Translations under genes and position numbers: made by a program
The notes under the pieces: model-generated
Seen by the model: only the letters and a program-made list of their open reading frames with translations
Database searches by the model: none
Told to the model about the DNA's origin: nothing
In this document: piece after piece, positions 895-4,551 of the stretch
Numbering within the stretch: the first letter of the stretch is position 1
Layout of the letters: each line of letters opens with the position of its first letter
Assembly (NCBI RefSeq): GCF_030704685.1
Contig: NZ_JAUZDX010000004.1
Location: 124,001-188,000, forward strand
DNA length: 64,000 bases
DNA from: Acidovorax sp. A1169
GTDB taxonomy: Bacteria > Pseudomonadota > Gammaproteobacteria > Burkholderiales > Burkholderiaceae_C
Direction of reading: 5' to 3'

Positions 895-2814
895 TCAGGC
901 TTTGGTGGCGATGTCATTGGCGATCAACTCAGCGAACGCTTCGATGGACATCACTCCGAGGTCACGATTGCCCCGGCCGCGTACTGCAACGGCGCCTGCG
1001 GCCTTCTCCTTGTCGCCCGCGACAAGGATATACGGCAGCTTTTGCAACGAATGCTCGCGTATTTTATACGTAATCTTCTCGTTGCGCAGATCCACCGCCA
1101 CCCTAAGGTCTTGATTCGGCAGTGCTTTTTGCAGCCGTTCAACAATTTCGCGACAGTAATCGGCCTGCGCGTCGGTGATATTGAGCACCGCAACCTGCAC
1201 CGGGGCCAGCCACAGGGGGAAGGCGCCGGCATAGTGCTCGATCAGCATGCCGATGAAACGCTCCATGCTGCCCACGGTGGCGCGGTGCAGCATCAGGGGG
1301 CGCTTGCGGCTGCCGTCCTCGGCCACGTACTCGGCGTCCAGGCGCTCGGGCAGGTTCGGGTCGATCTGCATCGTGCCGCATTGCCACTGGCGGCCCAGAG
1401 CGTCCTTGAGTGTGTACTCGATCTTGGGGCCGTAGAAGGCGCCCTCGCCTTCGGCGATCTCGAACTCGCAGCCCGAATGGCGCAGGCCATCCATCAGCGC
1501 CTTTTCGGCGCGGTCCCACGACTCATCGGTGCCGATGCGTGCCTCGGGGCGCGTGGCCACCTTGTAGATGATGTTGGTGAAGCCGAAGTCCTTGTAGACC
1601 TTCTGCACCAGCGCCGTGTAGTTGGCGCACTCCTCCAGCACCTGCTCCTCGGTGCAGAAGATGTGGCCGTCGTCCTGCGTAAAGCCACGCACGCGCATGA
1701 TGCCGTGCAGGCCGCCGGTGGGCTCGTTGCGGTGGCAGGCACCGAATTCGCCGTAGCGCAGTGGCAGGTCGCGGTAGCTCTTGATGCCCTGCTTGTAGAT
1801 AAGGATGTGGCCGGGGCAGTTCATCGGCTTGAGCGCGTACTCGCGCTTTTCCGACTCGGTGGTGAACATGTTCTCGTGGTACTTGTCCCAGTGGCCAGTC
1901 TTCTCCCACAGCTGCTTGTCCAGGATCTGCGGACCCTTGACCTCCTGGTAGCCGTTGTTGCGATAGACGCGGCGCATGTACTGCTCCACCTCCTGCCACA
2001 GGGCCCAGCCCTTGGGATGCCAGAACACGGTGCCGGGCGAGTGCTCGTCCATGTGGAACAGGTCGAGCTCGCGGCCAAGCTTGCGGTGGTCGCGCTTTTC
2101 CGCTTCTTCCAGCATCGTGAGGTACTGCTGCAGCTCGTCCTTGGTAGACCAGGCCGTGCCGTAGATGCGCTGCAGCATCTCGTTGCGGTGGTCGCCGCGC
2201 CAGTAGGCACCGGCCACCTTCATGAGCTTGAAGAACTTGAGCTTGCCGGTGCTGGGCACGTGGGGGCCGCGGCACAGGTCCTCGAAATTGCCTTCGCGGT
2301 ACAGGCTCACATCCTCGTTGCTGGGGATGCTGGCGATGATCTCGGCCTTGTAGTTCTCACCCAGGCCCTTGAAGTAGGCCACGGCCTCGTCACGCGGCAG
2401 CACGCGGCGCACCACGGGCTCGTCCTTGGCAGCCAGGTCGGCCATGCGCTTTTCAATAGCCACCAAGTCTTCGGGCGTGAAGGGGCGCTTGTACGCGAAG
2501 TCGTAGAAGAAGCCGTTCTCGATCACCGGGCCGATGGTCACCTGCGCTTCGGGGAACAGGTCCTTGACGGCATAGGCCAGCAAGTGGGCGGTGGAGTGAC
2601 GGATGACATCCAGGCCATCGGCATCCTTGGCCGTCACGATGGCCAGCGGGCTGTCGGCCGTGATCTGATAGCTGGTGTCCACCACCTTGTCGCCGATCTT
2701 GCCGGCCAGGGCCGCCTTGGCCAGGCCAGCGCCGATCGAGGCCGCCACTTCGGCGACCGTGACCGGGCCGGGAAACTCTCGCTGCGAACCGTCGGGGAGC
2801 GTGATGTGAATCAT
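895..2814 (-). CDS. thrS: threonyl-tRNA synthetase
   Basis: Charges tRNA-Thr; class II synthetase of 639 residues, close to the 642 of E. coli. Visible parts are the N-terminal TGS domain (from [16 protein letters not shown]), the editing-domain HxxxH (HSTAH near residue 78), the zinc-site MNCPGH, motif 2 ([18 protein letters not shown]) and motif 3 ([19 protein letters not shown]), followed by the anticodon-binding domain. The start at 2814 matches the family N-terminus and has AAGAG about eight bases upstream. The frame stays open further upstream, but that stretch runs through a terminator hairpin and leader region, so it was not used. It is followed by infC and rpmI in the canonical order. 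Expression is probably attenuated; see the leader peptide and terminator entries upstream. Confidence 0.97.
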
Positions 2815-2899
2815 GAGGGGTCTCTTGTCCGTGGATGTGGGTATGGGGTCGATCACGGGGCAGGTGCTGCGGCGCACGCCAGCCGGAATCGGAAAACAA

Positions 2900-2924
2900 A
2901 AAAGCGCGGAACCGGCCGCGCTTT
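2900..2924 (-). terminator. intrinsic terminator (attenuator) in the thrS leader
   Basis: On the minus strand a 10-bp perfect stem (AAAAGCGCGG / CCGCGCTTTT, loop CCGGTT) is followed by a run of T residues. It lies about 80 bases before the thrS start and about 45 bases after the stop of a Thr-rich leader ORF. Being inside the leader and upstream of the only gene it can control, it has the geometry of an attenuator rather than an end-of-gene terminator. Confidence 0.8.
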
Positions 2925-2959
2925 TGATTGGGGAGAGGTAAATCTCGTGCAGGCGCGAA

Positions 2960-2981
2960 CGGCCAGCCACTAGTGGCCGGT
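2960..2981 (-). promoter_or_regulatory. competing RNA segments of the thrS attenuator
   Basis: On the minus strand, segment X (ACCGGCC, 2981-2975, inside the last leader codons) and segment Y (CTGGCCG, 2966-2960) can form a hairpin around the leader stop codon: CCGGCC / GGCTGG with loop ACTAGT. Both can also pair with GGCCGGT or CGGCCGG in the 5' half and loop of the downstream terminator (2911-2918). This gives mutually exclusive folds of the classical attenuation type. Base pairing was worked out by eye, without energy calculation. Confidence 0.55.
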
Positions 2982-3011
2982 GGAGAACTCCGTTGTAGTT
3001 CGCGGTGTCAT
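2970..3011 (-). CDS. candidate threonine-rich leader peptide of thrS
   Basis: A 14-codon ORF on the minus strand reads [13 protein letters not shown] followed by TAG. Five of 13 residues are threonine, three of them consecutive, using ACA, ACT, ACG and ACC. AGAAAGG lies about ten bases upstream of the ATG. The stop codon falls in the loop of a hairpin, and a U-tailed terminator follows before thrS. Ribosome stalling at the Thr codons when charged tRNA-Thr is scarce would be expected to free an antiterminator and let transcription enter thrS. That is the mechanism of the thr, his and trp leaders; its use here is inferred from the layout. Confidence 0.75.
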
Positions 3012-3062
3012 AACCAGATTGCCTTTCTCGCCCTTGTGGGAAATCAAACAGTTGATGCCGCC

Positions 3063-3068
3063 ATTTTA
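3063..3068 (-). promoter_or_regulatory. candidate -10 element for the thrS transcript
   Basis: TAAAAT on the minus strand lies about 50 bases upstream of the leader-peptide ATG, a suitable place for the transcript to begin. No convincing -35 hexamer was seen at 16-18 bases, so this is tentative. Confidence 0.35.
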
Positions 3069-3165
3069 ACCATGTTCGCCGAAGGGCGCACGGCCCCAGC
3101 CACCCGACGGCCCCGCCAGTCGCGCCCCGACAACATGCGCAGCGCGAAAAAACCAGCAGCCCAAA

Positions 3166-3197
3166 GCAAGAAGCCACCCCGCGGGGTGGCTTCTTGC
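3166..3197 (-). terminator. strong hairpin terminator downstream of aceA
   Basis: A perfect 32-bp palindrome: GCAAGAAGCCACCCC then GC, then the complementary arm, followed on the minus strand by TTTGGG. It begins about 35 bases after the aceA stop codon, so it most likely ends the aceA transcript and insulates thrS. Confidence 0.8.
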
Positions 3198-3231
3198 AGT
3201 CTCCTCACCCCTCTTGCCGAGGGATTTCAGA

Positions 3232-4551
3232 TCAGTGGAACTGCTCTTCTTCGGTCGAGCCGGTCAGCGCGGTCACGCTGGACTTGCCGCCCTGGATCAC
3301 GGTGGTCACTTCGTCGAAGTAACCCGTGCCCACTTCCTGCTGGTGCGACACGAAGCTGTAGCCACGGTCGCGGGCTGCGAATTCGGGCTCCTGCACCTTT
3401 TCCACATAGGCCGACATGCCGCGGGCCACGTAGTCCTGGGCCAGATCGAACATGTTGTACCACATGGAGTGGATGCCAGCCAGCGTGATGAACTGGTACT
3501 TGTAGCCCATGGCGCCCAGCTCGCGCTGGAACTTGGCGATGGTGGCATCGTCCAGGTTCTTCTTCCAGTTGAACGAAGGCGAGCAGTTGTAGGCCAGCAT
3601 CTTGCCGGGGTGCTTGGCGTGCACGGCATCGGCGAACTTCTTGGCGAACTCCAGGTCCGGCGTGCCCGTTTCGCACCACACCAGGTCGGCGTACTCGGCA
3701 TAGGCCACGGCGCGCGAGATGGCCTGGTCCATGCCCTTCTTCGTCTTGTAGAAGCCTTCGGCGGTGCGCTCACCGGTCAGGAAGGGCTTGTCGTTCTCGT
3801 CGTAGTCGCTGGTCAAGAGGTCGGCGGCTTCGGCATCGGTACGGGCGATCACCAGGGTCGGCACGCCGTACACGTCGGCAGCCATGCGGGCGGCGATCAG
3901 CTTCTGGCAGGCTTCCACGGTGGGAACCAGCACCTTGCCGCCCATGTGGCCGCACTTCTTCACGGAAGCCAGCTGGTCTTCGAAGTGCACGCCACCGGCG
4001 CCGGCGCGGATCATGGCCTTCATCAGTTCGTAGGCGTTGAGCACGCCGCCGAAACCGGCTTCGGCATCGGCCACGATGGGTGCGTGGTAGTCGATATAGG
4101 CCTTGTCACCGGGGTTGATGCCCTTGGACCACTGGATTTCGTCCGCACGGGTGAAGGAGTTGTTGATGCGCTCCACGACCTTTGGCACCGAGTCGACGGG
4201 GTACAGCGACTGGTCGGGGTACATGGCCGAGTATTCGTTGTTGTCGGCAGCGACTTGCCAGCCCGACAGGTAGATGGCCTTGATGCCGGCCTTCACCTGC
4301 TGCATGGCCTGGCCACCGGTCAACGCGCCCAGGCAGTTCACGTAGGGCTCGTTGTTCACCAGGTCCCACAGCTTCTCGGCACCGCGGCGGGCCAGCGTGT
4401 ATTCGACCTGGAACGAGCCGCGCAGACGCACCACGTCAGCAGCGGAGTAGCCGCGCTTGATGCCCTTCCAGCGGGGGTTGGTGGCCCAGTCTTTTTCCAG
4501 GGCGGCAATCTGCTGTTCGCGGCTCAGTTGTTCGTTGAAGGATTGGGGCAT
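3232..4551 (-). CDS. aceA: isocitrate lyase
   Basis: Cleaves isocitrate to succinate and glyoxylate, the first step of the glyoxylate shunt needed for growth on acetate or fatty acids. The 439-residue protein has the signature [10 protein letters not shown] with catalytic Cys200, and the conserved [10 protein letters not shown] and [11 protein letters not shown] segments. Length is typical of the bacterial 430-440-residue type. The ATG at 4551 is preceded by AGGAGTAGACCCC. It is apparently monocistronic, with a terminator downstream and a promoter region carrying two palindromic sites upstream. No malate synthase gene is in the window. Confidence 0.97.

Follow-up and report, generated by a model that had tools for sequence, protein, structure and literature searches.

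What controls thrS, the gene for threonyl-tRNA synthetase (ThrRS), in Acidovorax sp. A1169? The question is raised by a short reading frame, rich in Thr codons, which precedes the gene in the 64,000-nucleotide stretch of DNA analyzed here (the window). The original prediction took this reading frame for the leader of a classical amino-acid attenuator. Ribosome-mediated attenuators of this type are known from the trp, his, thr, ilv and phe leaders of enterobacteria.

All elements of the locus are on the minus strand. The thrS gene (895-2814) encodes a protein of 639 aa with the Pfam domains TGS, tRNA_SAD, tRNA-synt_2b and HGTP_anticodon; the protein is 96% identical to ThrRS from Acidovorax facilis DSM 649, and the genome has a size of 6.8 Mb. 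The next gene in the same direction is infC (206-742), which encodes IF3. Beyond infC and outside the window follow rpmI, rplT (identified by eye), pheS, pheT and an ihfA-like gene; thrS, infC and these downstream genes probably form one transcript. The upstream neighbor on the minus strand is a gene of the isocitrate lyase family (3232-4551).

The leader ORF extends from an ATG at 3011 to a TAG at 2970. As had been claimed, it has 13 codons, five of which encode Thr, and three of these are consecutive: codons 5-7 (ACT ACA ACG, 2991-2999) are the proposed stall site. The sequence AAAGG (3022-3026), 10 nt before the ATG, is a putative Shine-Dalgarno element, and the ORF is probably translated. 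A -10-like box, TAAAAT (3063-3068), is located 57 nt before the ATG and would place the start of transcription at ~3056. The predicted U-tailed terminator between leader and thrS is also present. It covers positions 2925-2900 with a stem of 10 pairs and a loop of 6 nt, which are followed by TTGTTTT; the U tract runs on to ~2893. Its 5' half (arm 3, AAAAGCGCGG, 2916-2925) contains GCGCGG and its 3' half is arm 4 (CCGCGCTTTT, 2900-2909). Two more arms are located upstream. Arm 1 (CCGCGAAC, 2998-3005) lies in codons 3-5 of the leader. Arm 2 (GTTCGCGC, 2953-2960) is 3' of the leader stop codon; it can pair with arm 1 or, as an antiterminator, with arm 3.

These elements suggest the following mechanism. 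With ample threonine the ribosome would reach the leader stop codon, where it would cover arm 2, unless arm 2 were already bound to arm 1. Arm 3 would then pair with arm 4 and RNA polymerase would terminate before thrS. When charged Thr-tRNA is scarce, the ribosome would stall on the tandem Thr codons and cover arm 1. The freed arm 2 would pair with arm 3, the terminator could not form, and thrS would be transcribed together with the downstream genes infC-rpmI-rplT-pheST-ihfA.

The whole leader of the window folds with a z score of -2.23, and 4 of 200 shuffled sequences were equally good; since this is only moderately better than the shuffles, the folding energy alone is not the argument. The arm 1:arm 2 hairpin is present in the ribosome-free fold. 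A hairpin around the leader stop codon, as described in the original prediction, was found at ~2980-2963 (CCGGCCA-CUAG-UGGCUGG) in folds with a stalled ribosome, and the whole-leader fold contains a nearly coincident one. Neither this hairpin nor the pairing ACCGGCC/CTGGCCG, which was predicted and is present in the window, is conserved in every relative. The prediction of exclusive folds holds insofar as competing arms exist; the conserved arms CCGCGAAC, GTTCGCGC and GCGCGG differ slightly from those which had been named.

We analyzed the upstream regions of thrS in near relatives. The set was composed of the best 30 of 149 matching genomes from the family (the window included) and the best 80 of 587 titled genome contigs. 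Removal of a duplicate of the window and of two contigs that start inside thrS left 108 usable loci. Most are from Comamonadaceae; Ralstonia, Pandoraea, Noviherbaspirillum and other Burkholderiales contribute a few, and the two subsets have some species in common. A leader ORF, defined as an ATG with a CCGCGAAC-type core, is present in 81 of these 108 best-matching loci, and in 80 of the 81 a terminator is located between the ORF and thrS. Because the search pattern requires the core, codons 3-5 are in part conserved by construction.

The codons behind the core were examined in 74 distinct leaders. Codon 6 is a Thr codon in 58 of them (ACG 22, ACA 21, ACC 14) and codon 7 in 34. The excess of Thr codons is specific to the reading frame: from codon 7 onwards 109 of 600 codons encode Thr in frame, as compared with 4/522 and 16/522 in the two alternative frames (78 distinct ORFs, four of them with a shifted register). 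The same picture is obtained from codon 8 onwards after thinning to 52 leaders, with 42/359 in frame versus 4/307 and 10/307. A search for short ORFs in which one residue occupies at least four of five codons returned Thr in 15 of 107 loci; the runner-up residue reached 4. In an alignment of 54 leaders the sequence GAAAGGC, which includes the Shine-Dalgarno-like AAAGG, is nearly invariant.

The original prediction had named relatives without the Thr-rich ORF or the terminator as evidence against it. Such relatives exist: the ORF is absent in 27 of the 108 loci, whereas 80 of 108 have both ORF and terminator. The switch is hence widespread among near relatives, though not universal. By eye, two of the leaders appear decayed, one of them (L051) with ATA in place of the ATG and the other (L017) with a frame that stops after three codons. 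There are also leaders which are poor in Thr codons, namely MTPRTCRSPATSR, MTPRTQEITLPAF and, found by eye, MTPRTFPSLI. Diverged leaders were observed in Ralstonia (MIQAPRTTTASERQ or MIRAPRTTTASERQ, L098-L100), in Pandoraea (MIARTFTVVKVRR, L106) and at one further locus (MTARTFTEVKARR, L109). In MIARTFTVVKVRR and MTARTFTEVKARR just two Thr codons are left near the stall site, so that sensing may differ there.

A covariance model of the leader finds a single strong site in the genome, which is the present locus (E = 5.8e-30; next 0.13). In 300 genomes of the order it matches 83 at E 0.001, of which the weaker ones may be due to chance. For a closer view of the order Burkholderiales, 286 of the 300 genomes gave a match, and 100 loci upstream of thrS were picked by hand across numbered families (f-numbers) from the ~150 best places. 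Short ORFs with one residue in at least four of five codons are formed by Thr in 19 of these 100 loci, as compared with 4 for the runner-up residue and none for Thr on the opposite strand. The looser threshold of at least three of five codons gives a noisy picture: V reaches 40, T 37 and A 28 on the sense strand, and T reaches 28 on the other strand, in part because a tRNA-Val gene is located upstream. After removal of frames with PTTT, 33 Thr ORFs remained; a terminator precedes thrS in 30 of the 33, and these are from 11 families. In many families the leader is Thr-rich as well but quite unlike that of the window. Examples are MFRTTTTTGK and MFRTRTTTHR (f5), MSFRTTTTGTLNQG (f22), MFKRTTTTRISR (f28), MNTNTTRTTTTRHT (f4), MPRTRTTTGVFSRRG (f39) and MTPRTIRGTTTPPC (f47). 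Among the loci read from f11, f17, f25, f26, f30, f36 and others we found no Thr-rich leader.

In many families of both the order and the class, a tRNA-Val (GAC) gene immediately precedes thrS or the thrS leader. It was confirmed in nine of nine loci, all of which had been chosen because the gene was visible (L128, L133, L170, L199, L216, L230, L241, L250 and L266).

The region around the leader start is conserved to an unusual degree. The sequence GTTATGACACCG (3003-3014) is found without a mismatch in 74 of the 108 near-relative loci. With at most one mismatch it occurs in 10 of the 100 loci of the order (f3, f10, f32, f39, f47) and in none of 60 outgroup loci, which are described below. This near-invariance exceeds the needs of the attenuator scheme and is only partly accounted for by the arms. 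A protein such as ThrRS or a ribosomal protein could bind the near-invariant block GGUUAUGACACCGCGAAC and control the terminator, in which case the Thr codons would be a by-product. The block includes bases which are used in no arm, and codons 2-5 are almost invariant at their third positions too, with the reservation that codons 3-5 are partly built into the search. Binding of ThrRS to an mRNA has a precedent in E. coli, where the enzyme binds its own message (PMC3858243). The distribution of the Thr codons makes this explanation improbable. Their excess continues past the block and in the leader frame alone; at codon 6 the third base varies while the residue remains Thr; and the leaders from f4, f5, f22 and f28 lack the block and yet have longer Thr runs.

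The same conservation could reflect the peptide rather than the RNA. A nascent peptide or start region with the conserved sequence MTPRT might arrest the ribosome in response to a signal other than threonine, and MTPRT is indeed conserved even where few Thr codons come after it. The peptide is very short for such a sensor, and other families replace MTP (MFRT, MSFRT, MFKRT, MPRT, MNTNTTRT), whereas Arg-Thr and the Thr runs persist. We consider an arrest sensor very unlikely.

An attenuator also requires RNA arms which exclude each other. RNAalifold was run on the alignment of 54 sequences and recovered the terminator together with a hairpin of 4 pairs (UGGU/ACCG) around the leader AUG. It did not recover the 1:2 helix in this alignment, and for this reason the 1:2 and 2:3 helices were tested by name. 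In the 54 leaders the only conserved part of the interval from ORF to terminator is GTYCGCG, which belongs to arm 2; the remainder is variable. Seven pairs of the 3:4 helix are formed in 100% of the alignment cells. The 1:2 helix, which varies little, is paired in 75.1% of the cells over ten columns; together the 1:2 and 3:4 helices are paired in 85.4% of the cells, compared with 25.7-51.4% when the partners are slid. For the 2:3 helix the value is 94.8% over six columns, versus 20.7-61.0% after sliding. When the columns were shuffled, 137 of 500 shuffles reached the observed percentage of the 2:3 helix, which is therefore no better than the shuffles. The arms hardly vary, and the 2:3 signal thus reflects constraint and not covariation.

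In single sequences the duplex energies are only slightly better than in shuffled ones, with a mean z of -1.04 for 1:2 and -1.44 for 2:3. A z below -1.5 was reached by the 1:2 duplex in 26 of 80 leaders and by the 2:3 duplex in 33 of 80, so that the individual values are weak. At least 4 nt of arm 2 are common to both pairings in 74 of 80 leaders, meaning that the pairings are mutually exclusive. In the 61 loci in which arm 2 was recognized it starts at a median of 7 nt after the leader stop (quartiles 2 and 8) and of 32 nt after codon 6. With this spacing arm 2 would remain accessible during a stall on codon 6 but would be partly occluded by a ribosome that has reached the stop codon.

The effect of the ribosome was modelled in 74 of the 81 leaders. 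As a readout we used the pairing probability of arm 3 at the point where arm 4 has yet to be transcribed; for the stalled state, codon 6 was placed in the ribosomal A site. The median probability (n = 74) is 0.45 for the ribosome-free leader, 0.74 for the stalled state and, depending on the footprint, 0.55-0.69 for a ribosome at the stop. The respective values for the window are 0.19, 0.66 and 0.57. In 46 of 74 leaders the probability is higher by more than 0.2 in the stalled than in the free state, and in one leader the order is reversed; with a shuffled middle segment the difference occurs in 15%. The same test on 30 leaders from 11 other families gave a difference of this size in 17 of 30, with none reversed, versus 7% in shuffles. 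In these models a stall on the Thr codons favors the antiterminator relative to the ribosome-free state. The stalled ribosome and the ribosome at the stop codon are only weakly separated. Across four footprints the difference between them is larger than 0.2 in 11, 14, 32 and 32 of 74 leaders. For the second footprint, at which alone shuffles were run, 14/74 compares with 14% in the shuffles, which is no clear excess. In the 30 leaders from 11 other families the stalled state was above the stop state in 14 of 30 versus 16% in shuffles.

Does thrS in these bacteria also have the type of control that is established in E. coli? The operator hairpin of E. coli thrS resembles an anticodon, and the operator raises ThrRS when the enzyme is short. 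ThrRS binds its own mRNA there and represses translation of thrS via hairpins (PMC3858243). Sixty loci (L249-L308) served as an outgroup; they come from 95 places listed for members of the class outside the order, and most of them are among the most similar. In 27 of these 60 outgroup loci we found a hairpin whose loop resembles an anticodon (CGTA- or GGT-like letters); the counts are 1 of 100 for the order and 1 of 108 for the near relatives, and the region upstream of thrS in the window has no such hairpin. A stricter pattern, which was tried first, gave 10/60, 1/100 and 0/108, respectively. On the opposite strand the hairpin occurs in 0/60 outgroup loci and 0/100 loci of the order. One example is TGGTC-TCTCGTATG-GATCA; other loops read CTCGTA and the like. 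Of the 27 outgroup hairpins, 26 begin at a distance of 35-51 nt upstream of the position where the alignment of thrS starts. By their place, their letters and analogy with the E. coli case they are probably ThrRS operators, possibly members of a wide family. Thr ORFs show the opposite distribution: ORFs with Thr in four of five codons occur in 0 of the 60 outgroup loci, and ORFs with three of five codons in three. Translational autorepression, in which ThrRS would act on a hairpin that mimics the anticodon and lies close to the start of thrS, is the known mechanism in E. coli; for the window it is extremely unlikely. The attenuator appears, from this distribution, to replace the ThrRS-binding operator of the E. 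coli type in Burkholderiales.

The loci without a leader raise the question of whether the terminator has a role of its own. A terminator-like hairpin is located within 130 nt of thrS in 20 of the 27 leader-less near relatives, which indicates that a terminator can be retained where the switch is absent. In several of these loci the hairpin is ~30 nt behind the -10 box, and in one or two it may belong to the upstream gene. Seven leader-less loci (L037, L038, L039, L052, L062, L070, L071) have kept the GCGCGG...CCGCGC-U terminator with no obvious switch; here it is ~30-35 nt behind the start of the -10-like box and ~15-20 nt before the ATG of thrS.

A scan of the region with the sigma-70 consensus returned no promoter; the -10-like box was instead found by comparison of the relatives. 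In 58 of 81 relatives, versus 3.3 expected from shuffles, there is a hexamer TAAAAT, TAGAAT or TACAAT upstream of the leader, and in 54 of these 58 it is 45-60 nt before the leader ATG. A transcription start downstream of 2900, which according to the original prediction would have spoken against an attenuator, finds no support in these data; the start is more likely to be upstream of the leader. In principle the terminator could act as a constitutive brake, or mark where a transcript from upstream ends, next to an incidental ORF, as the leader-less loci might suggest. This can hardly be right in view of the frame-specific Thr excess, of the -10-like box that is conserved in the interval from the upstream gene to the leader, and of the separate terminator-like hairpin with a T run which the isocitrate-lyase-family gene has of its own (~3196-3155).

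T-box riboswitches, which occur at synthetase genes of Firmicutes, sense the charging of a tRNA by direct binding of the tRNA to the RNA and act by transcription antitermination. This reading was set aside: a scan of 2700-3300 against Rfam on both strands (E up to 1) returned no T-box and no threonine operon leader. The scan gave just two sub-threshold matches, which are unlikely to be real, and no leader family of Rfam.

Taken together, the locus is very probably a ribosome-mediated transcription attenuator of thrS, which senses the charging of Thr-tRNA(Thr). The original reading as a classical attenuator gains support from the in-frame Thr excess, the terminator, the dual pairing of arm 2 and the promoter-like box. 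It is further supported by the position of the stop codon just before arm 2, by diverged versions of the arrangement in 11 further families of the order, and by the fact that the E. coli-type hairpin was not found.

The locus shares with the attenuators of enterobacteria a short ORF with tandem cognate codons, three competing arms, an intrinsic terminator upstream of the first structural gene and a stop codon beside arm 2. It differs from them in that it precedes not a biosynthetic operon but a synthetase gene and the genes for IF3, L35, L20 and PheRS. Classical attenuation of a synthetase gene is also the mode of the gammaproteobacterial pheST attenuator with its leader pheM. In E. coli pheM is placed further downstream in the corresponding string of genes, whereas the present attenuator concerns threonine and thrS and is located at the head of the string. 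With the E. coli thrS operator the locus shares the target gene; there the control is translational and made by protein and RNA (PMC3858243). The claim that no thrS leader peptide has been described in this group holds for the Betaproteobacteria in the literature searched; a comparison of attenuation in aminoacyl-tRNA operons by Lopatovskaya et al. (2010) may predict one. Outside the group such a peptide has been proposed. According to PMC8079986, thrL of Streptomyces lividans TK24 is a candidate for a Thr-dependent leader peptide before thrS (MKRVRPFLETTPGFVPAR); it has two Thr codons, is leaderless and has a hairpin without a U-rich stretch, in contrast to the five Thr codons and the U-tailed terminator of the window.

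We lean towards a wider proposal, in which the control of thrS-infC-rpmI-rplT-pheST in Burkholderiales has switched from autorepression by ThrRS to attenuation by a Thr leader. This would tie IF3, two ribosomal proteins and PheRS to the charging of Thr-tRNA; the conserved GTTATGACACCG in the family of the window would point to a further input. If the proposal is true, the leader would offer a simple readout for inhibitors of ThrRS. It would also mean that many Betaproteobacteria have a threonine sensor on a synthetase gene which heads a string of translation genes. One essential gene would then be under different control in sister lineages, by protein-RNA autorepression in one and by ribosome-mediated attenuation in the other.
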